From an uncultured Acholeplasma sp. (lineage in GTDB: Bacteria; Bacillota_I; Bacilli_A; Acholeplasmatales; Acholeplasmataceae), in NCBI GenBank assembly GCA_937868795.1, contig CALMNM010000154.1, positions 20,249-84,248 on the forward strand: DNA of 64,000 nucleotides, read 5' to 3'. How positions within the stretch are numbered: the first letter of the stretch is position 1; each line of letters begins with the position of its first letter. Made by a program: the position numbers and the translations under genes. Positions 29,705 to 59,209 of this stretch are shown here, piece by piece. Under the pieces are notes generated by a model. The model was not told the origin of the DNA. It did no database searches and worked only from the letters and a program-made list of their open reading frames with translations.

Positions 29705-29727
29705 CATTTCACTTCCAGTCCACAAGT

Positions 29728-29758
29728 ATTGTAGCAAATCGACGTAGTAAATGTCGAT
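29728..29758 (-). promoter_or_regulatory. Promoter with inverted repeat before LacI-family gene
   Basis: Minus strand TCGACA, 18-base spacer, TACAAT. An inverted repeat ATCGAC-N9-GTCGAT (29738-29743 and 29753-29758) covers the -35 hexamer and spacer. It differs from the GAAAnCGnTTTC operators further upstream, so this regulator may recognise a different sequence. Confidence 0.5.
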
Positions 29759-31128: not shown

Positions 31129-31202
31129 ATGATCCTCCATCGATTTATCCATATGAAAATGACATGGATGACAATCAAAACTTGTTGTGTCTTATCTTGG
31201 TG

Positions 31203-34200
31203 TTATTTTGACTTTAATATGACACGTACGCGATCAAAATGACCACGTCTTATCTGTTCTGCAAGATGACCATCGACAGTGGATCCCTGAATCGTCACTA
31301 AATCAAAAGCATTTGACAGTTGATATTCGACTGGCTCAAGGCCATCAAACGTATCCTTAAGTTCAGGATTGACGACAGTGATATTCACTTTATTAAATAA
31401 TTTAAAGGATACTTCATGATGATCATCAAAGAAATCCTTCGTTAAGATCGGTTGAACTCTAAACTTCAATACTTGATCTTCAAATGTGAAAAGCTTCTTC
31501 CCGGTCATCATAAGGATCATGAGGGTGATTGCTTCTGAGGTTGTCCCTGTGAGACGAGCGACAAAAGCGCGACCATGATTCTTTGGATTAGGATTATTTG
31601 ATGTCGCGATAAATGAAGCATTTTCTAAGGGGCTTCTACCATAGACTTCAGGATCCATAAACGGAGGCATCGCCGTTTTCATATCGATAAAATACTCTTT
31701 ATAGAGACCGCTCTTGATTAAACTGATTAAGTATTTGTAAGACATGTGCATAAAGCACGCTTCACGTTCTAACCAACCTTTAGTAAAGGCACGTGCACGT
31801 CCAATTTCAAGTGTTTCGTCATCAAGTGGATTTGATGTTAGGTATAGACCAAGTTTTTGATCATACATCTCGGTTTGTTTAATTTTGTCATAAATGATCT
31901 TGGCTTCATCGTGGTCGTGTAACTGTTTTAAGTAAGTCGCTGGAGCTTCTAAATAGAAGGGGAGCATTCTCACTTTCCAGGAACGAACGGTCACAGTAGG
32001 ATAACCTAATTCAGGATGTCTTTTCTCGTTTACTTGATAGTCAAAAGCTTCATAGGATAGATAGGTTGGTAAAATGCCATCGCCCATGTTTTTTGCCTTA
32101 GTTAAGCCCTTTTCAATCGCCTTTTTCATCATAATCAGCCCATGGATAAGTTCATTTTTTGCGATTTTCAAAGGCTGTGGATCGAGGAAAAATTTCGTAT
32201 CACGATCAAATGCTTCGCGTAAATCTTGTAGATAATCATAACCAAAATCGACACCTGCGACAATATCCTTAAAGAATTGTGCAATGCGTGTAGGGACTAA
32301 GAATTGTTCGTCATAAAGCTGTGGCAACCATTCGAGCATGCGATCAACCAACCGCTTCAATGTGATGGTTTCGGTGAGTCCAGAACCGAAAATCGCGGGT
32401 AAACCATTCATAGCATCGTTCCAGCCTGGTTTTTCGCTATCCATCATCATCCCCATACCCTCAGGGTCTAAACTGGTAAATTTGATGGATGCTAAATGAA
32501 TCAGTTTGGTTAAAAGTGTGACCCGAATCGTCTCACCGTGTGAACTCTTGTGGAAGTTGGTTTGATTGACAGCAAGTTTTGCTCTATCGATTTTTTCTTG
32601 GTCATGGTATAGTGGACCGAGTTGACGGACTTCACCTTTTGGTGTCATCACATATTTGATCGAGCGAGGATAAACCGAAACATGATTTTGATAAAAACGA
32701 TATTCAGGACTTAACAGGAGTTTATCTAAGCGATCCGGGAATACATTTAAATAGGATTCAATCAAATCCATGTTATAGATCCAGTGATCACTCCAGTAAC
32801 CTGTTCCATAGACAGATTGAATTTCTTGTGTCGCATAAGAAAGAACGTGGGTTAAGAAACGTTCTTTATCCACAGATAATCCAATCTTATAATGATCCAC
32901 ATCTGTCATCAATTTACCAGGAGTAAATGATTTCTTTAGGATATTTTCGACGCGATCTTGATGTGAGGTCACGAGTTTTAAGATATCGGGTAAATCCTCA
33001 TGACTAATCTTTAGTTTGCTTCCTTGGATCGTTAAAGGATTATGTCCATCGAGCTGAATAAGGTCCATGAACTGACGAATATTAAATAGTTGTGCTTCAG
33101 GAACAAAATAGACGTCATTACGACGGTTTTGATTGACATCGCGATACGAACCATTACCTTGTGAAAAGTATGCGGGTTCAACAAAATAATTGTTGTACTC
33201 TCTTTCCATATCCCCATGAATTCTTGAGTAAATATGGTAAATAATCTCATGGTCTTTTCCTTTAAAGACAAGAGGATAACCTCCACGTAATAAATTATCA
33301 AGGAAGCTTTGTTTTAAATACGCATCAAATGTCTTATATCGTGTAGATACATCCATCGGTGAAGTGACTTCTTCACCTAATGTCATGGCAAATGCTTCAA
33401 GTTTTTCAAAATACTCAAAACTGAGGGTTGTTTCAAGTTCATGCAATTCTTCGAGGTGATTCGCTTTTCCGAAGAGTGTATAAAACGTATACTGGTCCTT
33501 TAGTTCAATGGATGCAGCAGAAAAACCACTCATAAGTTGGTTGACTGTGACTTGATCTTCTAGTAATAGATGAGATAATCCGGTATCTTTAAATACCTTG
33601 GGTTCACGAAGTGACATCTCATAACCAAAGATCAAGGAAGGATCAAAGATGACGTCAAGTTTTTCTTGTTCTTGATTGATCGACACGTAAAAATTGCCCT
33701 GTTCAACCCCTTCAACCTCTGCAGTATCTTCGGTGGTTGAGCGATTTTTTAATAGCGGCATCTTTCTTTCTTGATTAAAGACATCAAACCAAGCAACCGC
33801 TAAATTGCTCATGTTTTTGATCATGAATTGGTTGGTCCCATAAGGCCACATCGTTGCTAAACCATCGACGAGTTCAATTGTTCTTTTGTCTTTTCTTAAA
33901 TTTTTGAGTGATACTTTTCGGATTAATCCTGGATAAGGCTGGTTCGTGACGTTAAAATATTTAACTGTCACTTCGAGATCATCAAAAACTTCTTTAATCC
34001 CTACAGCATTCGTTTCAATCCACATTTGACGTGGATTATCTTGTGTGGAACTAAATGGTTCATGATAGCGTCCATCGACTTTAATAAATGTGCGAAATCC
34101 ATCGATTTCTGTCCGTCGATACGCCATATTGGCTGGACTAAAATCCAAAATCGCTTGATCCTTGGATTCAAGACCAAAACTCGAAATCAGTTGACCTCGA

Positions 34201-34334
34201 TTCACATAATACACCCACATAGGGATGCCATATCGTCCGGCAATGCCAGGCAAAAAGGAGGCAAATGGCTTTTTTTGATCATACTGATCAATCCACAACT
34301 TGCCTTGTTCATATTGGTAAGAAAACTTCATCAT
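31203..34334 (-). CDS. GH149-type beta-1,3-glucan phosphorylase (putative)
   Basis: 1043-residue cytoplasmic protein of the inverting glycoside phosphorylase clan (GH94/GH149/GH161). N-terminal beta-sandwich contains PFASFLPGIAGRYGIPMWVY and FSPANMAYRRTEIDGFRTF; the (alpha/alpha)6 barrel holds GNGSYRDVNQNRRND (about residue 390) and KPGWNDAMNGLP (about 632-643), equivalent to the catalytic-Asp loop of GH94. The length and these motifs fit the long 'cellobiose phosphorylase' group that includes GH149 beta-1,3-glucan phosphorylases better than GH94 itself. Likely reaction: beta-1,3-glucan(n) plus phosphate to glucose 1-phosphate plus glucan(n-1). The start is at one of two adjacent ATG codons after AAAGGA, 3 bases from the GH16 stop. 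Confidence 0.82.
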   Translation of the reverse strand: MMKFSYQYEQGKLWIDQYDQKKPFASFLPGIAGRYGIPMWVYYVNRGQLISSFGLESKDQAILDFSPANMAYRRTEIDGFRTFIKVDGRYHEPFSSTQDNPRQMWIETNAVGIKEVFDDLEVTVKYFNVTNQPYPGLIRKVSLKNLRKDKRTIELVDGLATMWPYGTNQFMIKNMSNLAVAWFDVFNQERKMPLLKNRSTTEDTAEVEGVEQGNFYVSINQEQEKLDVIFDPSLIFGYEMSLREPKVFKDTGLSHLLLEDQVTVNQLMSGFSAASIELKDQYTFYTLFGKANHLEELHELETTLSFEYFEKLEAFAMTLGEEVTSPMDVSTRYKTFDAYLKQSFLDNLLRGGYPLVFKGKDHEIIYHIYSRIHGDMEREYNNYFVEPAYFSQGNGSYRDVNQNRRNDVYFVPEAQLFNIRQFMDLIQLDGHNPLTIQGSKLKISHEDLPDILKLVTSHQDRVENILKKSFTPGKLMTDVDHYKIGLSVDKERFLTHVLSYATQEIQSVYGTGYWSDHWIYNMDLIESYLNVFPDRLDKLLLSPEYRFYQNHVSVYPRSIKYVMTPKGEVRQLGPLYHDQEKIDRAKLAVNQTNFHKSSHGETIRVTLLTKLIHLASIKFTSLDPEGMGMMMDSEKPGWNDAMNGLPAIFGSGLTETITLKRLVDRMLEWLPQLYDEQFLVPTRIAQFFKDIVAGVDFGYDYLQDLREAFDRDTKFFLDPQPLKIAKNELIHGLIMMKKAIEKGLTKAKNMGDGILPTYLSYEAFDYQVNEKRHPELGYPTVTVRSWKVRMLPFYLEAPATYLKQLHDHDEAKIIYDKIKQTEMYDQKLGLYLTSNPLDDETLEIGRARAFTKGWLEREACFMHMSYKYLISLIKSGLYKEYFIDMKTAMPPFMDPEVYGRSPLENASFIATSNNPNPKNHGRAFVARLTGTTSEAITLMILMMTGKKLFTFEDQVLKFRVQPILTKDFFDDHHEVSFKLFNKVNITVVNPELKDTFDGLEPVEYQLSNAFDLVTIQGSTVDGHLAEQIRRGHFDRVRVILKSK

Positions 34335-34337
34335 GTC

Positions 34338-35237
34338 TTATCCTTTCTGTAAATTGGTCACTGTTTCTGATTGATATACTCTCACGTACTCAATTTCCAT
34401 GCGTTGTGGGAAGATAGAGTCATCAACACCTTCAGCGCCACCCCAATTACCACCAACGGCGATATTGAGTAAAAGATGGAAACGTTGGTCAAACGGCCAT
34501 TCTTCAAATCCTGGACAATTTAAATATAAACCTGGATAAAAACGGAAGTATTGCACATCATTGATGTAGAAAATAATCCGTTCGGGTAACCAGACGATGG
34601 AATATTTATTAAATCCTGTCGATGCACTTTCAATCACGCGAGTTCCACTCTTTTGAGTGCCTATCGAATGATTATAAAACTTGGTATGAATCGATCCATG
34701 AATCACATTTTGGTCATAGCCAACATGTTCCATAATATCGATTTCACCGCTATTTGGCCAGCTACCATAACGCCAATCGGTAGGTAACATCCAAATCGCT
34801 GGCCAGGTACCGACACCGGTAGGGAGTTTGGCACTGATTTCAAACTTTCCATAGAGGAAATCACCCTTATTTTTACTGATCACCCGAGCAGAGGTATAAT
34901 CGCGACCTAAATACGCTTCTTTACGTGCTTCAATGATCATCTTGCCATCTTCTACCCAAGAGTTAAGGCCATTCGTGTAGTATTGGAGTTCATTGTTTCC
35001 CCAACCTTGACCTCCCACATCATATCCCCACTTGGTCGAATCTAGGGCACCATCAACATCGAATTCATCGGACCAGACGAGTTCATAATCGTCGATCGTC
35101 GTGAAATCATAGTCATATCCTGCGCCTTTGCAAAGGGAATAATCTGTTTCTTCAGGGGGTGTCGGTTCATCCTCCTCACATGAGGATAAGAGGAAGATGA
35201 ATCCGATAAGTAAAATAAATAGTAAGTTTTTTTTCAT
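34338..35237 (-). CDS. GH16 laminarinase lipoprotein
   Basis: 299 residues. Lipoprotein signal peptide with lipobox LSSC (C20), then a short acidic/proline linker and a GH16 beta-jelly-roll. The catalytic signature GEIDIMEHVG gives nucleophile E165, D167 and acid/base E170, the bulged ExDxxE form typical of endo-beta-1,3-glucanases (laminarinases). Flanking WPAIWMLPTDW and the terminal WPFDQRFHLLLNIAVGGNWGG agree. Anchored outside the cell, it should cut beta-1,3-glucan chains into oligosaccharides for the adjacent ABC systems. Ends 4 bases before the phosphorylase start. Confidence 0.94.
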   Translation of the reverse strand: MKKNLLFILLIGFIFLLSSCEEDEPTPPEETDYSLCKGAGYDYDFTTIDDYELVWSDEFDVDGALDSTKWGYDVGGQGWGNNELQYYTNGLNSWVEDGKMIIEARKEAYLGRDYTSARVISKNKGDFLYGKFEISAKLPTGVGTWPAIWMLPTDWRYGSWPNSGEIDIMEHVGYDQNVIHGSIHTKFYNHSIGTQKSGTRVIESASTGFNKYSIVWLPERIIFYINDVQYFRFYPGLYLNCPGFEEWPFDQRFHLLLNIAVGGNWGGAEGVDDSIFPQRMEIEYVRVYQSETVTNLQKG

Positions 35238-35238
35238 T

Positions 35239-36312
35239 TTATTCTCCTGTCATACCAGTACGTTCGATACCTTCAATAAACTTACGTTGCGCCGCTAAAT
35301 ACATGATAAATAACGGTAACATCGATAAGAAGGTCGCAGCCATACGGTAAGCTTCATTAATTCTTACTTGCCCACCTTGACCAGGAATACTTCCAGCAAG
35401 GTCTTCAAATTGAGAGGCAAACAAAGATAATCTTAACACAATTAATGGATTATTGGAATTATAATAGATCGTTGCTGAATATATATCATTCCAATTCCAT
35501 ACAAAACTAAAGAGGAAAACGGTGATAATAATCGGTGTGACAAGTTTGACATAGATATGCCAGAAAACCTGAGTGGAAGTCGCACCATCGATTCTTGCTG
35601 CTTCATCTAATGAGATGGGAATCATCTTGAAGAAATTGTAGAATATTAAAATGAGGATGGCTGAATTGACACCTTGACCAAACAGAGTGAGTAAGAACTG
35701 AGGAAACATCGTTTGGAAAAGGGTGGGTTTTAAAATGCCATCAAGGAAAGTGCCGCGCAGCGTTGAGTTAAAGAATGGAGTCCAAATCGTATCTTGTAAG
35801 CCAAAGATTGTCATGACACGGGGGATGGTGACCATTGGCAATGGAATGACGAAGGAAAGTAAAACCATCGCAAACCAGAATTTCTTAAACTTAAACTCAT
35901 AACGGGCAAATGCAAATCCTGTGAGTGATGCGATCACCGTTTGAACAAAGGCAACGACACCAATATTTCTCAAGGATTGAAAGAGATTCCCTGCATCACT
36001 AAAGATACCTAAAATCGCTTGAAGTGGTGCTTCAGCAAAATTCGCAAGCGATGGGGGTAAAAGTCCTAAGACGCGATTCGCCACCACATAGTTGGCGAAA
36101 CTGAGTTGTGTTGGAATCCAGTCAACTTCAGGATTAACCAAATCGATTTGTGTCAAGAATGACATCGAAATCATTTTTAAGAGAGGAAAGAGGAAGATGT
36201 AGCTGACACCGATCAGTAACGCATAGACCACCGTTTTACCGATGATGCCTGAGGTTGCTTTATGTCCAAATAGGCGTTTTCTCCATTTAAGAAGATCAAG
36301 CTTGTTGATCAT
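35239..36312 (-). CDS. Sugar ABC transporter permease, MalG type (second pair)
   Basis: 357-residue CUT1 permease with six predicted helices. The cytoplasmic EAA loop DEAARIDGATSTQVFWHIYV (about 245-264) contacts the ATPase. The periplasmic loop before helix 3 is longer than in typical 275-residue MalG proteins (about residues 50-105), which accounts for the extra length. Overlaps the partner permease by 17 bases and ends 2 bases before the GH16 start. No ATPase gene is adjacent, as is usual when a shared MsmK-type ATPase is used. Confidence 0.92.
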   Translation of the reverse strand: MINKLDLLKWRKRLFGHKATSGIIGKTVVYALLIGVSYIFLFPLLKMISMSFLTQIDLVNPEVDWIPTQLSFANYVVANRVLGLLPPSLANFAEAPLQAILGIFSDAGNLFQSLRNIGVVAFVQTVIASLTGFAFARYEFKFKKFWFAMVLLSFVIPLPMVTIPRVMTIFGLQDTIWTPFFNSTLRGTFLDGILKPTLFQTMFPQFLLTLFGQGVNSAILILIFYNFFKMIPISLDEAARIDGATSTQVFWHIYVKLVTPIIITVFLFSFVWNWNDIYSATIYYNSNNPLIVLRLSLFASQFEDLAGSIPGQGGQVRINEAYRMAATFLSMLPLFIMYLAAQRKFIEGIERTGMTGE

Positions 36313-37348
36313 GGCTCTTATCCTCCTTCTTCTTCATTTTCTGTTTAATCTTGTTGGTTAAGTTAATCACACTATCTTTGATTTGATCAAAGAGTGGTTT
36401 TTGTTGCTTTTGTAGCTGCAACTTTTTCATCTTCTCTAATGTTCTTGCTTTTCTTTCTCTGAGTGATTCTTCATATACCGTATCATCTTTTTCTCTCAAG
36501 AGGGCATAAGCAATACCGACAAAGATAATGACGATGAGCGAATAAATCAAGACAACTGCAGCGGCGAAACCAAGGCCATCGGAATAGTTATCACGGATCG
36601 TACCGACCACAAAGTTATAGATCGGGTTCACTTGGAAAATTGCAATTTGAACGACCGAGAAAATGGACACTACAAGTGCGGTTGATTTCAAATTAGGAAT
36701 CGTAATCTTCCAAAGGATCTGCCAAGAATTGGCACCATCGATTTGAGCCGCTTCATAGAGCTGTGAATTAATCTTCTGAAGACCATTCATAAACAGAACA
36801 ATTGGAATCCCAGTAAACCATAAGATAAGGGTAAAGTTGTTAAAGATTCCGGCAATCATATCCGCAATGAAAGGTGAAAAGTTTTCAATCATGCGGAACA
36901 CGATAATTTCGGTGACATCAATGCGGGTCGTTGAGTCCGAGTTAATGAGTTCGCTCATCACAGGTCCTGATAAAACGACAACCGGGAAGAAGTAAATCAT
37001 TCTAAACCCTGCACGGAATTTAATATTGGCATTAAGGAGTAGCGAAAGGATTAATGACAACACGATAATCGCTGGGACATAGGTGAGTTCAACAACCATG
37101 AAGTCCAAGATTAATGGATTAAAGGTCGTGTTCTTAAAGAACGCTGTTTCATAGTTGGCAAGGCCAATCCATGTTTGTGTCCACCCTGTTACATCCCTAA
37201 CGACGTTATTTAATGATAGATATATCGTGTAGAAAAAGGGATAAGCAACAAAGAACACAAATCCAATAAGCCAGGGGAGTAAGAATAAGTAAGCCGAACG
37301 ATTGACATGTTTTGATAAGTCTGAGACTTTTGATTTAGGTTTTTTCAT
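36296..37348 (-). CDS. Sugar ABC transporter permease, MalF type (second pair)
   Basis: 350-residue CUT1 permease with six to seven helices beginning LFLLPWLIGFVFFVAYP. The EAA loop YEAAQIDGANSWQILWKITI (about 200-219) is present. An unusual feature is a strongly basic cytoplasmic tail of about 50 residues (KARTLEKMKKLQLQKQQK and on) after the last helix. Pairs with the overlapping downstream MalG-type permease. Lies 10 bases after the DUF5696 gene. Confidence 0.92.
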   Translation of the reverse strand: MKKPKSKVSDLSKHVNRSAYLFLLPWLIGFVFFVAYPFFYTIYLSLNNVVRDVTGWTQTWIGLANYETAFFKNTTFNPLILDFMVVELTYVPAIIVLSLILSLLLNANIKFRAGFRMIYFFPVVVLSGPVMSELINSDSTTRIDVTEIIVFRMIENFSPFIADMIAGIFNNFTLILWFTGIPIVLFMNGLQKINSQLYEAAQIDGANSWQILWKITIPNLKSTALVVSIFSVVQIAIFQVNPIYNFVVGTIRDNYSDGLGFAAAVVLIYSLIVIIFVGIAYALLREKDDTVYEESLRERKARTLEKMKKLQLQKQQKPLFDQIKDSVINLTNKIKQKMKKKEDKSHDQQA

Positions 37349-37358
37349 CTTAGCCTCC

Positions 37359-39743
37359 TTAATCCAACACGCGGTAGTTGAGTGCGGTCACCGAATGACC
37401 TTCATATTCTACGAGTTCATCGGTATAATTGATCACAATCTTAACACCATTATCATAAGTATTCACGATGACGCCTGGCATGTAAACTTCACGATCTACC
37501 CATGATGCATTAAGCACATCTTGATAAGCATCATTCATTCGAGTATAAATATCATGAATCATGTCTTGGTAAAGCACATATTCAGTAGAGTAGAAATTTG
37601 AAGAATTTGTGGATATCAATTCATAGGATGGGTCATGCGTCAACATAAAGGATGGGAACACATTATAATCGATCATACGAAGCACATCACTATCCGTATA
37701 AAATGAGAAGTTTGCATAGGATGCATAGACTTCCATCGATCCCTGTAAGACAAGTTGCAAGAAAGGTACGGTATCGGTTTGAATGAGATATTGTGAGGTA
37801 AACATGGGTGCTTGTAAGTAACGATCAATAAATGGCCATAAATAGAAGTTAGGTGTTAAGGCATTGATCTTATAGTTTTCATCAATTGCCATCAGAGCAT
37901 CGGTATAAAGCGCCATGACTTCTTGAATAGAAAGTTCGTCACGTCCGTAATCGCTATACAGTAAATTGGTGATTCCTTCATAGGTAAAACTCATTAAATT
38001 TAAGTCTCTAACCGCTTTTTCATGTGATTTAATCCACGAAGCTACCAGTTTAGGACGGGCAAAATAGGTCTCACTCACCGGTCCGACTTCACCGACAATG
38101 TGTTCTCTGATATACCAACCATTGTAGTGTTTCGCTGCATTACCTACTAAGCTCATCTGTTCTTCATAAATCGTCGAGTAATTGAGTGCGAGGGATAAAT
38201 CAATATCAATAGCATTTAGATCAGCGACGACATCTTCAAACTCATTTTTCGAACCGATAGAGCGTGTCCAATTGGGATTATCTTTATCCCCAAGGGTAAT
38301 GCCTCCTCGTTGATAACCATAGACCCCTGAATTAATATTTTCAATGCCTGTTGAATTGAGTTCAGTTAAAATTTCTTTGACCTGATCAATCGTCGTGACA
38401 ACGACATCTTGGGTACCAATCAAGGAATCCATGGCATCTGCCATGATGAAATCAAGACGAATTGGCATTGCGTCCATCTGTTCTTCCATTGGATGAATCA
38501 TATCATTTTCAATTAAAATATCACGATACTTAAGCGCCATACCAACGTAATCCGCAGGATAACCATCGGTTTGTCCATCACCCGCTAAGAACACATAATT
38601 CATGGTGATGTCATAAGCCATCATATCTGGGAAAAGAGTGTTATATCCTGCACCAGCTTGGTTGTAAATCTGCTGGTAGACATTGTTGCGGTTAAACCGC
38701 GCATAGACGTAATTATAAGGAGTTAAGTTATTATGAGGGCTAGAAATAATTTCCATAAACTCAGCCCCATCGGTTGCATGTGCAAAGAAGGCGGCTTGAC
38801 GATTTCCGTGAGCAACGCCATATAGAGGCAGCGAAGGTGTCTTTAGTGGGACATACCCAAATTGCCAACGGTAATGATAGGTGTCGGTACTCATATCGGC
38901 TCCATAAACATCTCCACGATAGGTGGAAAGTGACGTGGTGTAGTCATCAAGTCTGAGCAATGCCCCACTTCCATCGGGGACAAAAATATAACCAGGAATA
39001 CGTTCTTTAGGCACATTTTCAGTCGCCCGTGGATAATCCATCTCGTCCATATCAAAGATCAACTGTTGACCACCAGATGCTCCCATAAATGGTGTAAATA
39101 TAAAGGCAGCAATCTCAGCGGTGTCTTCACCGGTGATTTCATCATTTAGAATTTGATAGCGCATACCATCTTCATTCAAATAGATATGGACTTTAACCAT
39201 GACATCGATGACATCGAAGGTCACATCTAAACGGTAATGCGTAGGATCATTATTGACCATCACTAGTGTCGAACGAACTGCTTCTTCTGATGCAGATGAA
39301 ATACGTTTGATCTGCATCGCACTATCATAATACTCCATGGTTAATAATGAATTTCCAATCCCTTCGAAGAGCGTGTTCATCCGGTCCTCTAAAGGAAGAC
39401 ATGTTTCGAGAATCTCTTCTTCTGTTGGGGGGACTTCGCGTTCTAATAGAAGATCACAATTATCTTTAATTTCATTATCAAAAGGAATGTCTAGACCCGT
39501 TTTCCAAGTGTAACCATTTCGTTTATCGTAGATAGCAAAAACATCTCTTGAATCTCTAAAATAATACTTGTAGGTGTCATTTTCATAAAGAAACTGCATA
39601 TCTGTCGGTTCACTGATCACATAGGTGACTTCATCGGGTGGAAGTTTGGTGTCTTTCGGTGATTCGAGATAAGTCGCACGTACTGTCAAACTTGTCATGA
39701 CTAAAATCAAAAGGATGACTATCAGTTTTTTATTGAAGTACAT
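37359..39743 (-). CDS. DUF5696 protein, secreted or membrane-anchored
   Basis: 794 residues. N-terminal hydrophobic segment (about 5-24) without a lipobox cysteine: signal peptide or anchor, so the protein is outside the membrane. Residues about 40-400 look beta-rich (galactose-mutarotase-like sandwich; SGALLRLDDY, YGVAHGNRQAAFFAH); about 420-680 look like an alpha/beta barrel (IRLDFIMADA, NSGVYGYQRGGITLGDK), the general build of a glycoside hydrolase, though I cannot name catalytic residues. DUF5696 genes are known mainly from Firmicute sugar ABC loci next to Yip1-type genes, as here. Overlaps the Yip1 gene by 14 bases. Role in binding or cleaving glucan is inference. Confidence 0.75.
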   Translation of the reverse strand: MYFNKKLIVILLILVMTSLTVRATYLESPKDTKLPPDEVTYVISEPTDMQFLYENDTYKYYFRDSRDVFAIYDKRNGYTWKTGLDIPFDNEIKDNCDLLLEREVPPTEEEILETCLPLEDRMNTLFEGIGNSLLTMEYYDSAMQIKRISSASEEAVRSTLVMVNNDPTHYRLDVTFDVIDVMVKVHIYLNEDGMRYQILNDEITGEDTAEIAAFIFTPFMGASGGQQLIFDMDEMDYPRATENVPKERIPGYIFVPDGSGALLRLDDYTTSLSTYRGDVYGADMSTDTYHYRWQFGYVPLKTPSLPLYGVAHGNRQAAFFAHATDGAEFMEIISSPHNNLTPYNYVYARFNRNNVYQQIYNQAGAGYNTLFPDMMAYDITMNYVFLAGDGQTDGYPADYVGMALKYRDILIENDMIHPMEEQMDAMPIRLDFIMADAMDSLIGTQDVVVTTIDQVKEILTELNSTGIENINSGVYGYQRGGITLGDKDNPNWTRSIGSKNEFEDVVADLNAIDIDLSLALNYSTIYEEQMSLVGNAAKHYNGWYIREHIVGEVGPVSETYFARPKLVASWIKSHEKAVRDLNLMSFTYEGITNLLYSDYGRDELSIQEVMALYTDALMAIDENYKINALTPNFYLWPFIDRYLQAPMFTSQYLIQTDTVPFLQLVLQGSMEVYASYANFSFYTDSDVLRMIDYNVFPSFMLTHDPSYELISTNSSNFYSTEYVLYQDMIHDIYTRMNDAYQDVLNASWVDREVYMPGVIVNTYDNGVKIVINYTDELVEYEGHSVTALNYRVLD

Positions 39744-41775
39744 TACGAATCACCTCCTTAATAATCGCTTCTAGGAACATATAGAGTTGTTCCCACATCA
39801 TGATAATAATGATGAGGACAACCGCGAACACCACAGAGAACAAAATCGTCATCAGGATGCTCTTAAACGTTTGCCTTGCACTATAATCATGAATTTCTGT
39901 CATACCTAAGAATAGATTAATGAAACTCCATCCTAAACCCACGAGCATGAGCATATTCAAGAAGAATACTTCGTTGTACGTGAGGACATACGATAAGATA
40001 GTTGTCGATAGTAATGCGATCATCAACGGTCCCATCGAATATATGAACATAATGAAGATCTGCTTAAAGCCACCGATACCATCATGAATGGAGGTATCTA
40101 AATAGTTGCTGATGATGAGCACCATCGATATCGAGAAGAAACCGATGACGATAGCGGATAAATCCATATCTTCTGCAGCAACAAACTGATAGATAAATCC
40201 TTTGTTGACACTGTAGTTGAGATACAACAAGAATAAGACAAAATAAAGGATGATTGCGGTTGTTATGGTTGCCCGATGTTCTTTTTTGATCTCATAGAAA
40301 CTATCCAAAGGATGTCTCATTACTCTAAAGATATACATAAGATCTCGTACGATTTTTATGTCGAAGAATTTTCGAACCGGTGCGGTCCACAATGTGATCT
40401 TTCCTGTTTTGCGATCGACAATCACGAGTGTTTTTTGAAGCACCAAGAAGACAACTAAAATGATAATCAATGCACCCAGTGCTTGTTGAATATCGACGTT
40501 ACGCACTTCCCAATAAGCTTCTGAATAACCCGTTCGATTACCTGCGAGCTCGAAATGATACATCGCATCTTCATATCTTTCTTGTTGGAGATACGTTTTG
40601 GCAATCGAGTCATGAGCAATCACAGACATTTGGTTTAGTTGTAGTACTTCTTCCCAAACGACAATGGATTGACTGTATTGACGTGTTGAGTATAGGAAGA
40701 GTGCTTCATATATCTTATTTGCATAATCGGTGGGTTGAAATGACTGAAGGAAGTTTTTAGAGTCATCTAATGCCCAAATATTTCCTTTTGTATCCACTGC
40801 AATCGACGCTAGGCGAGAGAATAGTCCTGAAATATCAGAATTCATTTCACCTGTTAATAAGTTGGATGCACCAAAGTTATAGATGAAATCACCATCAGAA
40901 GTATAGACGAAGATCGTCCCATTTTGCATCGCAGCATAGACAATCCCTTCTTCATCGACATAGATATCACGGGCATCTTCATAAGAAATAGTTCTGCTTT
41001 CCGCGAAAATATTACCACCTTGCGTATTATGCTTCTTGATGGCATTTCTAAAGGTCCCCATGGTCGTTGTATAAATCATGGAGTTTTGATCGATAAAGAT
41101 ATTGGAGAATGTTTGTGGATCTCTTGCAGCGAAATCTTCAAACTGTTCTTCAGAGAAAATGAGTTTGTAGATTTGTTGTGTAAAGGATAATTGAACTTTA
41201 TTGGATGTGAAATATCCTAAGAATTCGCCCGTATTCGAAAGTTGAATGATTCCATCTTTGACCCCTTCACCATAAATATAGAGGTTTCCACGATTATCGA
41301 CGACAACTTTGCTGGGATTATAGGTGGTATCTCCAAAAGATGGCGTTGTTGGGCGATCAAACTGACGAATAAATGTACCATCAAGTTCGAACCAAAAGAC
41401 CGTTTCTGCAGTGGTGTCTGCGACATATATCCCACGATCACTAACAAATACACCTTTAGGTTTATTAAAATCAGGATGTGATAAGACAAAATCTATCGTG
41501 CTTGTCACAGTATTGAATACGACCACACGCTTATTGTCAGTATCGGCGATATAAAGCATATCATCGCCGTAAAAAATCATGTCTTGGGGACCCTTTAACC
41601 CTAAATTGACATAGGTCTTATCGGGTAAATAGGCATCTTGGGTTCTCACATAACGCCCTTTAGCATTCAGTGTCATCGTATAAGATGTGGCTGATGAGGC
41701 TTCGGTAGTCAAACTAAACCCAAAGACTAAAACGAAGGATAAAACGAGGATGGTTAACCATTTGATTGTTCTCAT
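39730..41775 (-). CDS. NHL-repeat/TPR/Yip1 membrane protein
   Basis: 681 residues with an unusual build. Signal peptide (about 1-27); a six-bladed NHL-type beta propeller outside the membrane (about 45-345; repeats such as GPQDMIFYGDDMLYIADTDN and KPKGVFVSDRGIYVADTT); a TPR-like helical pair (about 350-420); a transmembrane helix (about 432-450); a short cytoplasmic stretch; then a Yip1-type domain with five helices (about 500-675). Start at ATG 41775, preceded by GGAGGG; an upstream in-frame start would overlap the permease. Flanked by permeases and DUF5696, it may be a membrane assembly or sensing part of the uptake system. No function is known. Confidence 0.78.
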   Translation of the reverse strand: MRTIKWLTILVLSFVLVFGFSLTTEASSATSYTMTLNAKGRYVRTQDAYLPDKTYVNLGLKGPQDMIFYGDDMLYIADTDNKRVVVFNTVTSTIDFVLSHPDFNKPKGVFVSDRGIYVADTTAETVFWFELDGTFIRQFDRPTTPSFGDTTYNPSKVVVDNRGNLYIYGEGVKDGIIQLSNTGEFLGYFTSNKVQLSFTQQIYKLIFSEEQFEDFAARDPQTFSNIFIDQNSMIYTTTMGTFRNAIKKHNTQGGNIFAESRTISYEDARDIYVDEEGIVYAAMQNGTIFVYTSDGDFIYNFGASNLLTGEMNSDISGLFSRLASIAVDTKGNIWALDDSKNFLQSFQPTDYANKIYEALFLYSTRQYSQSIVVWEEVLQLNQMSVIAHDSIAKTYLQQERYEDAMYHFELAGNRTGYSEAYWEVRNVDIQQALGALIIILVVFLVLQKTLVIVDRKTGKITLWTAPVRKFFDIKIVRDLMYIFRVMRHPLDSFYEIKKEHRATITTAIILYFVLFLLYLNYSVNKGFIYQFVAAEDMDLSAIVIGFFSISMVLIISNYLDTSIHDGIGGFKQIFIMFIYSMGPLMIALLSTTILSYVLTYNEVFFLNMLMLVGLGWSFINLFLGMTEIHDYSARQTFKSILMTILFSVVFAVVLIIIIMMWEQLYMFLEAIIKEVIRNVLQ

Positions 41776-41785
41776 GGGACCCTCC

Positions 41786-42661
41786 TTACTTAATACCGGC
41801 ATGGGCCATCGTGTTCATGACACGTGACTGCATGACGATAAAGATGATTAAATTGGGTAAAAACATGATGAGACCGGCAGCAGCCGCCATACCGACACCA
41901 GCTAAGGTACTACCCGTATTGGCAAGTGCAAGTGTATTTAGGTAGAAGGCAAACGACTTCATGGTTTCATCTTGAATGTAAAGTGATGATGCTTCAACTG
42001 CACCCCAGGTCGCCTGGAACGTCAAAATGGCAACTGTGGCAATCGCGTTTATGGTGAGCGGGATAATAATTTTGAACACAATGTACATATCGGAAGCACC
42101 ATCCACACGCGCAGCTTCAATAATGGGATCCGGGATCTGATCAATAAACTGCTTCATTAAGAATACGGAGACCGGAACCGCTAAATACGGTAAGATATGC
42201 ACTAAGGGATTATTATTAAGTCCGATATTCACGATGATAAAGTAGGTCGGAATAATCACCGCAGTTCTGACGAACATTAATGCAATCTGGTTAATACCAA
42301 ACAATGTTTTCTTCGCTCTGAAGTTCTTCTTTGATAAAACATACCCTGTCGTGACGCTTATCCAAATCGTGAGGAATACCAACACCGTTGTAATGATTAA
42401 GGTGTTAAAGAAGTAACGGGAAAGAGGAACACCAGTAGACGTCGCTGTTCTAAAGAGTTCAACAAAGTTATCAAATGTCGGCTTTTGCACGAAAAAACGG
42501 GGTGGGAATAAGAAAAGTTCATCAAGCGGTTTAAATGCTTGGTTCACGATATAAACCACAGGGAGTAGCATGAAAAGCCCAAGTGGAATCAGAAAGGCAT
42601 AGAAGCCAATTTGTGATTTACTGAAATTGGTTGGATTAATCTTCGTTCCTTGAAAACTCAT
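41786..42661 (-). CDS. Sugar ABC transporter permease, MalG type (first pair)
   Basis: 291-residue CUT1 permease with six helices. EAA loop IEAARVDGASDMYIVFKIII (about 188-207) and the terminal VMNTMAHAGIK are typical of MalG-type subunits. 11 bases after its MalF-type partner and 10 bases before the Yip1 gene. Together with the large solute-binding protein and the MalF-type gene it forms the first complete importer unit lacking only an ATPase. Confidence 0.93.
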   Translation of the reverse strand: MSFQGTKINPTNFSKSQIGFYAFLIPLGLFMLLPVVYIVNQAFKPLDELFLFPPRFFVQKPTFDNFVELFRTATSTGVPLSRYFFNTLIITTVLVFLTIWISVTTGYVLSKKNFRAKKTLFGINQIALMFVRTAVIIPTYFIIVNIGLNNNPLVHILPYLAVPVSVFLMKQFIDQIPDPIIEAARVDGASDMYIVFKIIIPLTINAIATVAILTFQATWGAVEASSLYIQDETMKSFAFYLNTLALANTGSTLAGVGMAAAAGLIMFLPNLIIFIVMQSRVMNTMAHAGIK

Positions 42662-42672: not shown

Positions 42673-43614
42673 CTAGTCCTTATCCATGAAGAGCTTATAG
42701 GCAACTTTTGAGAACAAATAAATGATGATTAAAAGGACGACCGATAAAGCGGCAGCATAGCCCATCTCATAGCGGATAAATCCGTAATCATCAATATGGT
42801 TTGTAATCAGTTGCGCAGCATACTGTGGTGTCGGGTTAGACCCTGACAAGGCAACCCCAATATAACCATTCGTGAAAGTAGCAACAATCGCCATAACAGC
42901 TCCAAAAAGCATTTGAGGCTTCATCATGGGAATGGTGACATACATGACTTCTTGGAATTTATTACGGATGCCTTCGATATATGCAGCTTCATAAAGTTCT
43001 TCATTACCATTTAAAATACCAGCTAACATCGCCAAAAAGCCGACACCCATACTGCTCCAAAGGGCAACGATAATGACGATATTCATCAAATAATCCGGTG
43101 AGACTAAAAATTGTATTGGACGATCAATCCAGCCATTATCAAGCAAGAATGCGTTGATATAACCAGATTCATCACCACTAAAAATCGTCCGCCATACCAC
43201 CGACATAAAGACACCACCAACCATCGATGGTGTATAAATGGCGAGTGCTAAGATCGTCCGAGGTACTTTTTGAATTTGCGCTAGCATCCAGGCAAGCAGG
43301 AAGGCGAGGAGATACCCTCCTGGTCCAACGATCAGCGCAAATTTCAGCGTGTTTGGTAATACATATTTCAAAAATACGGGGTCTTGTGTAAAGATATTGA
43401 TGAAATTAAAGAGCCCGCGATATTCTGGAAATTGAATGACATTGAAACTAGTGAGTGAAAGATAAAAGGCAATCGCAACGGGAAGCGCAATAAAGATGGA
43501 GAACAATGTCGCATAAGGCAATAACATTAACGCGACAGTAAGTCCATCTTTGAACTTCGCTTGATTTCGATTCTTCTTCTTTAATGTCGTCGCATTCATC
43601 ATGGTATTATCCAT
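42673..43614 (-). CDS. Sugar ABC transporter permease, MalF type (first pair)
   Basis: 313-residue CUT1 permease with six helices; EAA loop [20 protein letters not shown] (about 213-232) has Glu-Gly in place of the usual Asp-Gly. ATG at 43614 follows GAGGAGG and overlaps the end of the large solute-binding protein gene by 8 bases, so the two are coupled and likely work together. Confidence 0.92.
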
Positions 43615-46570
43615 TGTTAGCCTCCTCAATCTTCATTCGTACCCAATCGATATCACGAATGGTATAGGGGACAATGACTTCGCCATCTTGAGTCAAGAAA
43701 CCAAATTCAATCATTTTCTTTCTGATTTCTCGGTCGATGACAATGGTGTAGCGGTCAACAGCGATTCCCGTAGGTGTACCATCATAAACCGCAGTGTTCC
43801 ACACATCAGACAATGAACGTTCAAGCATATATTGGCCTGGTGTTCTTGGGACGTCTACAAGCCATTGAACTTGATCTAAGATAATTGTTTTGTCTTTTTC
43901 TGGGAATGGTGAGTTTCTAAATGCATCGATATTCCCTGACAACCATGCATAGGTAGGACCATATGTGGATTGTAAGTTGAAGGCAAACTGACTTTGGGTA
44001 TCAACGGACATCCACCACTTCAAGAATGACCAAGAATCATCAGGTTGCGTCGTGGATGACAAGATTAGTCCAGCCGTACCATTCGCGATATAATGTCTAT
44101 TTTCTTCACCGTTGACGGTCACACTTGGATATGGTGCAATTTCCCATAAACCAGAAAGTTCAGGTGCTGCATTCTTAATAAGTAAATACGTTCCGAAATC
44201 AGAGATCCCAATGGGAAGTGTTGCATAGCGGAAGCTGTTATAGAATGAGGGAACCTGTTCGGGAAGGGAGTAGTTGGTAAATAATTGGTTGAGGAATGTT
44301 AACCCAGCGATCGATTCTGTACTATTAATCGAAGATTTAACCCCAGTTTCTGAGTAGAGTTTTCCTCCATATTGATAGATAAATCCTGAGGTTTGATAAA
44401 ACCATTTAATGGAAACACCACCAGCAATAGGATGGTAGAAATTCATACCATATTGTTGGAGTTCTGGCAAGATTTGAATGACTTCATCCCAAGTATCTGG
44501 AACCATGAAGTTTAAGGCATCAAAGATATCCTTTCGATAAATGATGACATTGAAATCCAAAGTTTCAGGAAGCGCATACGATTTGTCATTTAAGATGTAA
44601 GGGACAAAAGCACCTGGCGCGAAATGACCAGCAAATTCCCAATAATCAGGGAAGGAAGATAGATCATAAGCGGCACCACGAATGGCTAAGTCATAAGGCA
44701 TATAGGAAGCTAATCCTAAGGCGACATCGGGTTGCTGATCAGCAGCGGAAGCCATGACGAGTTTATTCGGATCAGGCATGACGGAAATCTTTACCTTAAC
44801 CCCTGTGTCAGGTGTAAAAGTTTGATCGGCCATCTTTTGCATCATATCGACATAGGTGATAGGACGGTTGACCCAAACATCCACGACATCTGCTTCTTCA
44901 GTTAGCGAGTACTTGTCTGAGGTAAATGAAGCGAAAAATGCTTGGATACCTGACCATGACTTGACAAAGAAGTTGGCATTCGCACGTGGTAATTTTTCGT
45001 TGTTATACACGAAGATCATGTTTAAGAACATCGGCTGTTCTCTAACCATTGTTAAGGAATCTCCGAGATACTGAGCAATCGAGCCTGTACCACCGGAAAG
45101 ATCTTCAAGATAAAGAGGTACTTTATCGGGATTTTCTTGAATCAATGTCAACTTATACAGTGCTTTTTGAATGTAAGAAATGGTGGTTGATTCTGCTCCA
45201 TTAGGTGCATAAGGTGCAAATTCTGCAATTGCAGACTTAAGAAGGATTTCATAAGCATCCAGATAATCAGGAGTTTCAGGGATATATTGTGTAAACTTCC
45301 AGGTACGATCCCGGTCAACTTCTTTACCGGCAATCTTTCTGATATCAAGTGAGAATTTATTGATGTGGTCAATGACCATTTGTAAATAACGCAATCCCTG
45401 TTCGAGAGGTTCGCTTTCGACACGCATGGTTATCGTGTGTGTTCCTTCGGTAAAATAAAACAGATAAGGATCTTCATTTCCCAATACCTCGATGGCCCAT
45501 TCTTGACCACCTGTATGATTGAATTCATAGGCTTCGAGTTCTTCAAATGGAATGGATCCATCAATGCTGATCGAACGGAAAACGGAATAATCATGTTTCA
45601 TGTTTTGATAATGGAAGGCAAGTTGATAATTACCTTCTTGTTCGACATCAAAGGTATAGGTAATCGATTGTCCAGGTAAATCCCAAGACGTTCCATCGAT
45701 GACGTTTAATTTTTTATAAACAGCGTCAAAAGGATCCATCGCTGGGTCATTAAGCGACATGAGATGGGTAAATGATGAATTCTTTTCTGTATAGTCTGTA
45801 GCATTGACTTCAATCATCGCCTCAATATCCGTTTGAGGTTTACCTTGACGATAGCCGTCATAATCAGGGCGGGACTCAGGTGCAAGTAGCACAAGATCTC
45901 CAAGTTCAATCAACGTTGATGATGTATTCGTAATTTCAATCGTATTTAAACCTTCATTCAAGACAAAGAATAATGGATCTACCGAGACATAGGTGTTGTT
46001 ATATAGAGGGATGAGTTGCCAATCATCGTTAGTCAATTGATTGGGTAAGACTTGATCCCCATAACGATCGACTTGAAAGTCTTTACTTACATCCATCCAG
46101 GTCATCGGAATATCAATCGTCTTTTGATCATCATACAACGTAACCCCATTGATGGTTACAGATAGTGTCAAATTGTTTAACGATTGATTATCCATGAGTG
46201 TTTCCAAAGCAAAATGGACGAGTGTTTCATCGTCTACAGTGACGGTATATGTCGCTTGATCTCCTAGAGAAAGCGTCTTTGATAAACTCAAGATATCATC
46301 ATTATAGAGCGCTTCAGGATCATTCATTGGGACTGTTTGATCATCTGCCAATTTTTGAATAAATGCTGGTAAATCATTCAGATAATCAACATAGGTATAC
46401 CGTGGAGTCTCAAGTGTCGACGCTAATGCTTCATACGCTTGACTGAGTTCAAGACCTGTTATTTCATTTTGTGGAACATAGTTATCATAATCATTACTAA
46501 AAAAGATGATCGCGACGATGACGACGGATAACGACAAAACCGCGACGATAATGTTCTTTAAACTGCTCAA
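43607..46570 (-). CDS. Large membrane-anchored sugar-binding protein with CBM-like modules
   Basis: 987 residues from a TTG start at 46570 (AAGGGTGAT upstream; no ATG is available). An uncleaved N-terminal helix (about 5-25) anchors it, with no lipobox. Residues about 30-270 are beta-rich and unassigned; about 300-415 look like a CBM35/CBM6-type carbohydrate-binding sandwich ([20 protein letters not shown]); a helical linker follows; about 560-985 form a CUT1-type extracellular solute-binding domain ([41 protein letters not shown]). Typical binding proteins have 420-550 residues, so this is about twice normal length. Probably catches long beta-glucan chains for the coupled permeases (inference). 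Confidence 0.82.
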
Positions 46571-46600
46571 AATATCACCCTTCTTTGTGTTGAATAAAAG

Positions 46601-46634
46601 TGAAGGCACCAAACACAGTTGTTGGGTGCCTTCA
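46601..46634 (-). other. Intercistronic stem-loop after first binding-protein gene
   Basis: 10-bp perfect stem TGAAGGCACC / GGTGCCTTCA with a 14-base loop in the gap between the two solute-binding protein genes. On the minus strand it is followed by CTTTTATTC, a poor T run, so it should be a leaky terminator or 3'-end stabiliser giving more binding protein than permease. Confidence 0.7.
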
Positions 46635-46666: not shown

Positions 46667-48295
46667 TTATTCGAAATCAGCGTCTGTTAAGCCGTAGAAT
46701 TCTTTTAATCCTTCACGAAGTGCTGCTTCAGATAATAAGAAGCGTTCGTTCATCGCGGTGTTCCAGTCACCGAGTTTAGATAAGACTAAATCTGTCCAAC
46801 CAGCATCCGAACGGAGTGGTGAAGTTGCTTCTGGGTTACCAGTAATGACTGCTGGGTTCCAAATGTTCTGCCATTCATTTAAGATGGGGCGAACGGTACC
46901 GTTGTCATCATAGGTCCATGGATATGCCTTATCAGAGACATCCCAAATTTCTCCAGCTTCCCAAAGTCTTAAGATTTCATGGAAACCTGGCATAACTGCT
47001 GGGTCTTCAAAACGAGCATGGATTGGTGTTGAATACCAAATGTCCATTTGTTCGTCAAATGCATCACCAGTAACGAGTGGGAATGAGTCATTCATTGCAG
47101 ATTTGAGTGCTTCGCCATCAAGGAATTCTTGAGCAGCTCTTGCTTCCCAAGCACGTGTATCACCAACCCAGAAAGATGCGAATGTGTACGCAATCTTCGC
47201 TTGGAGTTGTTCGTCTTCGGTATATTCTGGGTTACCATCTAACATAGCAAAGTTATATACTGCAAGTGGGTCAAGAACGACACCTACGGTGTTACCTTGG
47301 TATGCTGTAGAAGGTCTTGGATAAATATCCCAGTCATTGGATTGTGCTGCACCCCAGTGCCCTTCGGTTGGGTTTGCTGCATCGCCCATCATCCATGGGT
47401 CGCCATCTAAGGTAAGGATCTTGTTGTCAATGAAGAACTTGAATCCCCACCACCAGCTTGCGTCCATCACTTCATTTGGAACTAAGCCTTGTGCTTGAAG
47501 ACCCCAAATGGATGAATCTGCCCATTCAGAAATATAGGGAATCAATGCTCTAACTTCATTGGAGTTTAGGTTGATGTGGTCGCCTGAACCGTCATATGAA
47601 GAAAGTTGCGCTGCAAGTGTAGTTGTTCCTGTGAAAATGAAGCTAAATGGTGTGTCCATTGCGCCCCAGAAATTGGTCATATCTGCAGAATTAACGAAAT
47701 CTGTATATTCTTCGATTGTCCAATCAGGATCGGGTACGTCGATATTATTTTGTTCAGCAAGTTCTTTGTTAACAAAGACACCCCAAGGTTGTAAGAACTG
47801 AGGAAGACCTGCTTGAATACCAAAATAATTCATCATCTGCATAACGCCTGGGTTAAATGACTGATAAAGTGGGTCATTTGAGAATTGTGAAAGGTCAGCA
47901 ACTAAACCTTTGGTCACGTCATCAACTAAGTTTGTTGATGCCCAGATGTCTGGATAATGACCGTAGTTGGTCTTGAAGTTTTCACGTTCTTGGTCCCAGC
48001 TTACGCCACCATCATTTGGACCAGCTGCTTTAGCATAGACGTTAATTTTAACATTTGGATAAATTTCATTGAACGCCTTAGCTACTGCGTAAATGGTCGC
48101 TTGATTTTGACCTGCTAAATCTTCAGGTGCAAGAGTCTTGTTACCGATATCTTCGATGTATGATCCGTCGCCGGACCAAAGCATGACAGTGACGTCACCT
48201 TCGATACCTGTATCAAGCGCTTCGTACTTGTCCTGACATCCCGCAATAGTCAATGTGACTGCTAATGCGAGTAAAAGCACTAAATACTTTTTCAT
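46667..48295 (-). CDS. Sugar ABC transporter solute-binding lipoprotein
   Basis: 542 residues. Lipoprotein signal peptide with lipobox IAGC (C20), then a CUT1-type solute-binding fold. Aromatic residues are abundant along the likely ligand cleft (ASWWWGFKFF, GDPWMMGDAANPTEGHWG), suiting a long oligosaccharide. First gene of the transport operon, with AGGAGG upstream of ATG and an operator-overlapped promoter. It has no adjacent own permease pair; it may serve the second pair (35239-37348) or both (inference). Confidence 0.92.
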   Translation of the reverse strand: MKKYLVLLLALAVTLTIAGCQDKYEALDTGIEGDVTVMLWSGDGSYIEDIGNKTLAPEDLAGQNQATIYAVAKAFNEIYPNVKINVYAKAAGPNDGGVSWDQERENFKTNYGHYPDIWASTNLVDDVTKGLVADLSQFSNDPLYQSFNPGVMQMMNYFGIQAGLPQFLQPWGVFVNKELAEQNNIDVPDPDWTIEEYTDFVNSADMTNFWGAMDTPFSFIFTGTTTLAAQLSSYDGSGDHINLNSNEVRALIPYISEWADSSIWGLQAQGLVPNEVMDASWWWGFKFFIDNKILTLDGDPWMMGDAANPTEGHWGAAQSNDWDIYPRPSTAYQGNTVGVVLDPLAVYNFAMLDGNPEYTEDEQLQAKIAYTFASFWVGDTRAWEARAAQEFLDGEALKSAMNDSFPLVTGDAFDEQMDIWYSTPIHARFEDPAVMPGFHEILRLWEAGEIWDVSDKAYPWTYDDNGTVRPILNEWQNIWNPAVITGNPEATSPLRSDAGWTDLVLSKLGDWNTAMNERFLLSEAALREGLKEFYGLTDADFE

Positions 48296-50937: not shown

Positions 50938-50939
50938 TC

Positions 50940-51659
50940 TTAATCAATCCTTTCGTAGACCTTGACATATTTGACGCGCATTTCTGTCGGGAAAATCGAA
51001 TCATCGATGGTTCCACCCCAAGTGCCACCTAAAGCAACATTTAAGATAAGATAATAATCCTTATCGAATGGCCATGCTGCTTTATGGATATAGTCTTGTT
51101 TTTTAAAGGTCACCATCAATGTTTTATCGAGATAAAATGAAACTTCTTCTTCGGTCCAATCCATCCGGTATTCGTGAAATCCCTCCAAAATACCAGGGAG
51201 TTTGAAGACTGCGGTTGGTTGATTACCGATATGATGATAATTTGTTTTTGAATGAAGAGAGAAGTGAATGGTTTCGGGGTTATGTCCCACATGTTCCATC
51301 AAATCGATTTCTCCGCATGCTGGCCATCCCACTTGTTCCATATCAGTTCCTAAGAACCAAATCGCTGGCCAAGTACCTCTACCTTTAGGCAGTGATGCCA
51401 TCACTTCGACACGTCCATATTTGAGATGTTTTTTATCTTTTGTTGTTAATTTACCTGAAGTATAATGTCTATTCTTATAATCTTCCTTAAGACCCGTAAT
51501 GATCAGTTCACCCTCGTGAACGCGTACATTTTTGAGACGATTTGTGTAATATTGGGCCTCATTGTTACCAAAACCATGTCCTGCTACTTCAATATTCCAA
51601 TAGTTGGAATCTGGGGTTCCTTCATAATCAAAGATGTCTTGCCAAAGAAGCCTGTACAT
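50940..51659 (-). CDS. GH16 beta-glucanase, signal-less
   Basis: 239 residues consisting of only the GH16 jelly-roll. Catalytic signature GEIDLMEHVG gives E117, D119 and E122, the laminarinase-type ExDxxE. GRGTWPAIWFLGTD and the terminal WPFDKDYYLILNVALGGTWGG agree. No signal peptide: the first residues (MYRLLWQDIF) already form the first strand. It should therefore act in the cytoplasm, trimming imported beta-1,3-gluco-oligosaccharides. GGAGG precedes the start, which overlaps the cupin gene by 32 bases. Confidence 0.92.
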   Translation of the reverse strand: MYRLLWQDIFDYEGTPDSNYWNIEVAGHGFGNNEAQYYTNRLKNVRVHEGELIITGLKEDYKNRHYTSGKLTTKDKKHLKYGRVEVMASLPKGRGTWPAIWFLGTDMEQVGWPACGEIDLMEHVGHNPETIHFSLHSKTNYHHIGNQPTAVFKLPGILEGFHEYRMDWTEEEVSFYLDKTLMVTFKKQDYIHKAAWPFDKDYYLILNVALGGTWGGTIDDSIFPTEMRVKYVKVYERID

Positions 51660-59074: not shown

Positions 59075-59209
59075 AAAGACACCTCCTACTATCAGTTTAA
59101 ACGTCTTCAATCCATTCATACCCATTACGTTTTTTAAAATCATCTCAATAGAGAACATTGTTCATCACCATGTATATTTATCCATCAGATTGCCAACTAA
59201 ATGATGCGA

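Follow-up and report, generated by a model that had tools for sequence, protein, structure and literature searches.

A recurrent gene block of two ABC permease pairs, an NHL-TPR-Yip1 membrane protein and DUF5696, read as a candidate glycan-chain uptake complex

The gene pair and its operon

In a 64,000-nucleotide stretch of DNA from an uncultured Acholeplasma sp. (the window), two overlapping genes encode a membrane protein with NHL, TPR-like and Yip1 parts (NHL-TPR-Yip1) and a protein of the DUF5696 family. A sequence-only reading of this DNA had placed the pair between the two permease pairs of an ATP-binding cassette (ABC) importer and had suggested that it forms an accessory surface apparatus that holds, senses or pre-processes glucan. 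Both genes were confirmed on the minus strand, DUF5696 at 37359-39743 (794 amino acids) and NHL-TPR-Yip1 at 39730-41775 (681 amino acids counted from the ATG at 41775, with an open frame that extends to 41802). As that reading had noted, they overlap by 14 bases (39730-39743), with the NHL gene first by transcription. The placement was also correct, as genes with Pfam BPD_transp_1 matches lie on either side, permeases A1/B1 upstream and A2/B2 downstream. By transcription the operon runs SBP2, LSBP, A1, B1, NHL-TPR-Yip1, DUF5696, A2, B2, GH16, GH161 and GH30, all on the minus strand.

The proposed domain make-up of the first protein was upheld by Pfam for two parts out of three. The NHL match (39.5 bits versus a cut-off of 20) belongs to a beta propeller at 40738..41637, residues 47-346 of the 681-amino-acid form, and the match to Yip1 (PF04893, 54.5 bits versus a cut-off of 28.6) places the membrane domain at 39811..40329 within the Yip1 family. 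TPR_2 reached just 17.9 bits versus a cut-off of 27 in the window protein, so the TPR-like part (40540..40728, residues 350-412) relies on helices in the predicted model and on precomputed TPR matches in a number of homologues. Within this part 12 of 63 positions are invariant among 67 aligned sequences, and conservation across these sequences rules out that the TPR and the propeller are chance matches. Judged by eye, the N-terminus carries a signal peptide, and the propeller and TPR would face outward. In loci where the NHL-TPR and Yip1 parts are fused in one gene, the NHL-TPR-Yip1 and DUF5696 profile matches overlap in 113 of 126.

Recurrence and inheritance of the module

We surveyed the neighborhood of DUF5696 in two samples. 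For the first, named species genomes were scanned with a DUF5696 profile; of 550 confirmed matches the top-scoring 80 (79 distinct) were retained, so this set leans towards the clade of the window. Its taxa are mostly Bacillota (Erysipelotrichaceae, Lachnospiraceae, Acholeplasmataceae, Izemoplasmatales and Clostridia), together with two records from Treponema and one each from Chloroflexi and Anaerolineaceae. The source genome holds four DUF5696 genes, the other copies being loci L005, L006 and L007. For the second sample, 295 genomes were drawn evenly across the phylum. Eight component profiles were run in six frames; they were built from the first-set loci and L005-L007 themselves, which affects the detection of parts and not their order.

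Counting same-strand matches, every one of the 172 other loci shows the arrangement around DUF5696 over the length that its contig covers, with order kept in 82/82 loci of the first set and in 80/80 and 10/10 of the draw. This recurrence rules out a local oddity of one genome, and the linkage of the pair to CUT1-type permeases, which had been set beforehand as a test, was confirmed. In the first set LSBP was present in 67 loci and absent from none, the contig ending first in 15; the same counts were 73/0/9 for A1, 75/0/7 for B1, 78/1/3 for NHL-TPR-Yip1, 74/1/7 for A2, 72/1/9 for B2 and 49/4/29 for SBP2. NHL-TPR-Yip1 is missing from L059, whose contig extends just 614 bases beyond the upstream end of a DUF5696 match starting at query residue 198. 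L058 has an additional permease match on the opposite strand.

Of the 295 drawn genomes, 83 had a DUF5696 match at E<=0.001; it exceeded the Pfam cut-off in 45 and reached E<1e-50 in 41. The other 42, whose matches were weaker than E<1e-50, were not counted. NHL-TPR-Yip1 matched 40 genomes at E<=0.001, the weakest at 8.3e-28. LSBP matched 45 at E<=1e-10, of which 40 were at E<1e-50 and five were weak (1e-11 to 1e-14) and confined to the binding-protein domain. The strong matches to all three proteins fall in an identical 40 genomes. The extra DUF5696 genome, G042, has a 339-amino-acid frame (L122:6904-7923) with DUF5696 only in its C-terminal part; the start of the frame resembles GH161 by eye, so it is likely a deletion remnant of the module.

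Outside the source genome and G042 there were 90 strong DUF5696 places, all taken with their flanks. The first 80 were scored by same-strand matches within 9.5 kb, and a later check found no opposite-strand or farther match there. Present, absent and contig-end counts were 76/0/4 for LSBP, 76/0/4 for A1, 77/0/3 for B1, 79/0/1 for each of NHL-TPR-Yip1, A2 and B2, and 25/5/50 for SBP2, while the last 10 places contained all seven parts (LSBP, A1, B1, NHL-TPR-Yip1, DUF5696, A2 and B2) in order. LSBP was found in 153 of 153 DUF5696 loci with a long enough contig. Four NHL-TPR-Yip1 places first listed without DUF5696 (G006 C52 and C63, G126 C3, G158 C174) proved to have DUF5696 adjoining, and at a fifth (G001 C34) the contig ends before the DUF5696 position. 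Since at most four candidates per genome were scored (two for LSBP), copy numbers are lower bounds; some genomes hold at least four copies of the module. The pair comes with LSBP and both permease pairs wherever contigs reach, save in L051, L059 and G042, and "accessory" is thus not a fitting description of it.

Among 117 full loci, the pairwise distances of the seven parts correlate with r of 0.81-0.95, highest (0.95) for NHL-TPR-Yip1/DUF5696 and for A1/B1. The 22 genomes with at least two full modules (55 loci) gave r of 0.84-0.96, and shuffling partners within genomes reduced this to means of 0.06-0.11, with 0.54 as the largest single value (200 shuffles per pair). This loss of correlation indicates that parts are not exchanged between module copies of the same genome, and it rules out a species-tree effect behind the correlations. 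At the level of sequence, these comparisons establish that the gene set co-occurs, keeps its order and is inherited as a block.

Folds, partners and cargo

The DUF5696 protein of the window scores 473.4 bits against a Pfam cut-off of 25.6, and its predicted fold is GH129-like over the full length. This bears out the sugar-enzyme build proposed earlier, at the level of the model. PF11308 (GH129) did not match the protein, for which DUF5696 was the sole Pfam family at E<=10, and the DUF5696 profile, searched against PDB sequences, returned a single chance match (E 2.5). The link in sequence comes from four bridging proteins that are over the DUF5696 cut-off and also match, at E<0.001, the Pfam models of both GH101 and GH129 (six of these eight matches being below the Pfam cut-off), and from a single hhalign comparison (Prob 94, E 1e-7). 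PF11308 matched none of the 295 genomes and nothing in the controls either; without GH129 sequences from that source, the catalytic comparison was made through the bridging proteins.

One of the two catalytic residues of the GH129 enzyme NagBb is E478. The other, D435, is given as catalytic in PMC5698469. In DUF5696 an Asp at 583-589 and a Glu at 627-632 occur together in just 8 of 118 sequences, so that holding is a likelier role than the pre-processing once proposed. We predict that DUF5696 is a former sugar-cutting enzyme that has lost catalysis and would now only hold the chain. Two listed DUF5696 proteins carry CBM_4_9 (P0089, 27.3 bits; L021, 27.1 bits; cut-off 25.9), and the extra N-terminal parts in L153, L176, L180 and L042 gave no further Pfam name. 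Six places were taken from the drawn genomes with only weak DUF5696 matches, and four of them (L116:1236-3056, L117:1389-3215, L118:1168-2979 and L119:856-2829) hold a separate family of 603-657 amino acids resembling DUF5696, GH101 and GH129. Its members keep the Asp/Glu pair, three of the four also match DUF6259 and none has an obvious signal peptide by eye, and it is possibly an unnamed cytoplasmic glycosidase family.

LSBP (43607..46612, 1001 amino acids) has an N-terminal hydrophobic segment without a lipobox, which is likely an anchor. A binding protein of CUT1 type forms its C-terminal part: positions 558-866 of the LSBP profile are closest to Lin1841 (5ysb, E 1.1e-25), and the profile also matches other sugar-binding proteins, as expected for the cognate binding protein of a CUT1 importer. 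We take Lin1841 to bind beta-1,2-glucan. The middle of LSBP (profile positions 298-392) weakly matches the glucanotransferase 5x7g (E 8.2e-6), in what is presumably its CBM35 region. SBP2 (46667..48295, 542 amino acids) is a lipoprotein substrate-binding protein with the stretch LTIAGC, which we read as a lipobox-like motif; it has no Pfam match and a weak PDB match to 22hh (E 9.9e-9). It is a variable part of the module and not strictly conserved. Many genes upstream of LSBP that the SBP2 profile missed look binding-protein-like by eye, those in L125, L149 and L155 not.

The permeases comprise two MalF-like proteins, A1 (42673..43629, PF00528 37.7 bits) and A2 (36296..37348, 30.2 bits), and two MalG-like proteins, B1 (41786..42661, 43.3 bits) and B2 (35239..36312, 31.2 bits). 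All four are over the BPD_transp_1 cut-off and show what we take to be EAA-type stretches, in keeping with the two permeases of a CUT1 importer. The A2 profile best matches SugA (8ja7, E 1.6e-17), then AlgM1 and MalF. In five loci (L007, L181, L186, L188, L202) A2 and B2 are fused to one polypeptide of 617-631 amino acids, which indicates that this pair acts one to one. Elsewhere (L081:12537-15323, L083:12562-15339, L048:12523-14367, L054 and L062) A2 has an extra N-terminal region of about 240-550 amino acids, and scans of L081 and L048 gave it no Pfam name.

A close UgpC/MsmX-type ATPase (>580 bits to that of the source genome) lies in just 2 of the 162 loci scanned (L035 and L046), and weaker ABC ATPases (99-142 bits) lie in L169, L178 and L187. 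Among 54 matches in the source genome, a single one (C150:5963-7057) exceeds the NF008653 cut-off. It lies away from the module, next to PGK and TPI genes, and by eye its contig shows no permease within the initial 15 kb. With ATPases nearly absent from modules and the genome's own encoded elsewhere, a shared ATPase is likely. UgpC/MsmX-type ATPases lie beside glycolysis genes (PGK and TPI, by eye) at L035:16586-17719, L046:17511-18722 and L203:1501-2688, which covers the source genome and two other records.

Downstream of B2 on the same strand lie a laminarinase-like GH16 enzyme (34338..35237, PF00722 77 bits), a GH161-type phosphorylase, by family for beta-1,3-oligoglucan (31203..34334, PDB 9qqk "gh161 phosphorylase" E 8.1e-205), a GH30 enzyme (29800..31152, PF02055 273.4 bits) and, at 28703..29737, a regulator that its sequence motif leads us to regard as LacI type. 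The window holds GH16, GH161 and two GH30 enzymes, in line with the laminarin use described in PMC6484121. From these neighbors the window cargo is most likely laminari-oligosaccharide. Upstream, at 48476-51659 and 52071-54560, lies a second glucan set with GH30, a LacI-like and a GH16-like gene (both by eye) and a GH94-type phosphorylase; an MMPL family transporter at 56915-59158 (173 bits) is unrelated to the module.

Other copies have other neighbors. In the 82 first-set loci, the neighbor clusters, each named after one or two of its members, were GH161 (32), GH3 (16), GH30 (16), GH94 (13), LacI (27) and mixed GH5/GH16 (46), and 105 genes downstream of modules L123-L180 included DUF624 (19), NamZ (17), PF10091 (12), GH16 (8) and GH3 (7). 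Within the source genome, L006 is beside GH3 and NamZ, L007 is beside a PF10091 (glucoamylase-family) gene, and L005 has no clear enzyme; a nearby DUF4127 gives no clue. PF10091 presumably marks beta-1,2-glucan (GH144). In one subtype (L005, L006 and loci among L123-L143) NHL-TPR and Yip1 are encoded by two genes; DUF624 and NamZ genes often follow, which suggests import of peptidoglycan sugars. The NamZ/GH3 (peptidoglycan sugars) and PF10091 neighbors rule out a glucan-specific module, and a role in glycan uptake fits the neighboring enzymes. Of the first reading of the pair, the CUT1 linkage and the glycan uptake role are therefore retained, and its accessory status and glucan specificity are given up.

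A proposed uptake complex and known systems

In monoderm bacteria, large glycans have to cross the wall without the help of SusCD-type porins, and the handling of long chains is poorly known. To the proposal that the seven-protein block of two permease pairs, LSBP, NHL-TPR-Yip1 and DUF5696 works as one glycan-chain uptake complex we give an even chance. In such a complex, the anchored LSBP, with its CBM-like part (a weak match), would catch glycan outside, and the lipoprotein SBP2 would add specificity. NHL-TPR-Yip1 would serve as a scaffold, sitting among the permeases via Yip1 while its propeller and TPR hold the outer parts together, and gripping the chain and guiding it between LSBP and both permease pairs would fall to DUF5696. 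The energy for import would come from an MsmX/UgpC-type ATPase that is shared and encoded elsewhere. For the window, GH16 and GH30 would cut the glycan to laminari-oligosaccharide, the most likely cargo, and GH161 would phosphorolyse it inside the cell.

Several observations weigh against a single complex. Conserved operons can encode two separate machines, and NHL propellers and TPRs are general interaction folds that are no proof of scaffolding; the PDB comparison of the NHL-TPR-Yip1 model barely tested its Yip1 part. In 31 of 157 loci one gene encodes the NHL-TPR half and another the Yip1 half, which also suggests two functional halves, one outer and one in the membrane. In L051, A2/B2 are inverted on a 7.6-kb contig with a second DUF5696 piece adjoining, and the SBP2 profile has no match in 9 loci with enough contig, several of which hold a diverged binding protein by eye. 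The main rival is that two ordinary CUT1 importers stand side by side, LSBP with A1/B1 and SBP2 with A2/B2, taking up long and short products of one glycan, with NHL-TPR-Yip1 and DUF5696 as separate assembly or adhesion helpers. The two permease pairs, the two binding proteins of many loci and the A2-B2 fusions, which look like a self-contained pair, all agree with it, as does the treatment of the A. laidlawii locus as two clusters by Kuhaudomlarp and others (PMC6484121, section 7). We nonetheless consider it unlikely. Where contigs reach both, the two pairs are encoded together, and loci found through DUF5696 never show one pair alone except the inverted L051, no permease-only search having been made; no strong LSBP match occurs without DUF5696 in any of the 295 genomes, and parts do not reassort between copies within one genome.

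The remaining alternatives concern the pair itself. DUF5696 might be an active, unconventional glycosidase that trims glycan at the permease mouth through other acids of the predicted barrel. Besides the GH129 fold over its full length, this is favored by residues of the first 74 sequences that are acidic at D436 and D692 (74 each), D657 (72), D431 (71) and E671 (66), by acidic D692 and invariant N678 and P660 in all 118, and by an acid at position 589 in 52/118 (36/74 of the first sequences). Position 629 is Asp/Glu in 24/74 and 25/118. The register was taken from an hhalign alignment with low column confidence at the catalytic positions. Against it, neither the beta-4 nor the beta-5 place has a conserved acid, with both acids in the 8 sequences given above; of the barrel positions, D692 alone is acidic in >=80% of each subtype; and the same protein is kept in modules beside different enzymes. 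Activity of this kind seems improbable to us. Still more remote is the idea that the pair is a glycan sensor signaling uptake status and no part of transport: sensor domains can be propellers, the NHL fold matches of the model include PknD, and 27 of 82 loci have a LacI-type cluster nearby, but neither protein has a kinase or other signaling family over the Pfam cut-off, and the regulators are of a separate LacI type not fixed in the module.

Taking the single complex further, we tentatively suggest, with somewhat less than even confidence, a new class of ABC importer. In it, two permease heterodimers would be yoked by NHL-TPR-Yip1, and a DUF5696 of former GH129 type would guide intact chains into both gates from an anchored receptor that bears a CBM, with receptor and enzyme swaps re-targeting the system to beta-1,3-glucan, beta-1,2-glucan-like or cell-wall glycans. 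If true, this would be a common uptake chassis of several phyla, found beside different enzymes and overlooked by annotation because neither protein of the pair reached any NCBIfam cut-off and the very name DUF5696 denotes an unknown function. DUF5696 would then gain a function, as an example of a glycosidase fold put to use in a transporter, and glycan loci now read as two transporters, as in Acholeplasma laidlawii, would be one. Within the open-licence literature searched we found no paper on DUF5696 and, among the entries listed for combinations of Yip1, NHL, GH161 and ABC, no description of the module.

DUF5696 is 12-13% identical to the GH129 glycosidases NagBb (5wzr) and ZGAL_3152 (5opq); it differs from them in having a signal or anchor segment and a fixed transporter operon, and in lacking conserved catalytic Asp and Glu positions and a PF11308 match at E<=10. 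With the CUT1 importers MalEFGK2, LpqY-SugABC and AlgM1M2, the module shares BPD_transp_1 pairs, binding proteins and, probably, an ATPase encoded elsewhere, whereas its two permease pairs per operon and 1000-amino-acid anchored binding protein set it apart. To our knowledge, CUT1 systems have no counterparts of NHL-TPR-Yip1 and DUF5696.

The closest description found concerns the GH161/GH94 clusters of A. laidlawii and A. oculi, which share GH161, GH16, permeases and a neighboring GH94 cluster with a substrate-binding protein (SBP) and transporter components (PMC6484121). According to that paper, the A. laidlawii GH161 cluster has two permeases without an SBP and lies beside a GH94 cluster with one, the SBP is suggested to be common to both, and most of these transporters lack nucleotide-binding domains. 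Its section 7 counts two clusters, in contrast to the single module proposed here, and is silent on NHL-TPR-Yip1 and DUF5696. We found a DUF5696 homolog in A. laidlawii and an NHL-Yip1 homolog in A. oculi, so the module is likely present in these cultured species. The likeness to SusC/SusD of Bacteroidota suggested by the sequence-only reading can be kept as an analogy in outline, in that surface capture would be tied to a membrane transporter with several versions per genome; it does not extend to homology, as no SusC/SusD family was found among the eight module proteins at E<=0.1 (Pfam), and the module would use ATP-driven permeases where SusC/SusD uses a TonB-dependent barrel.

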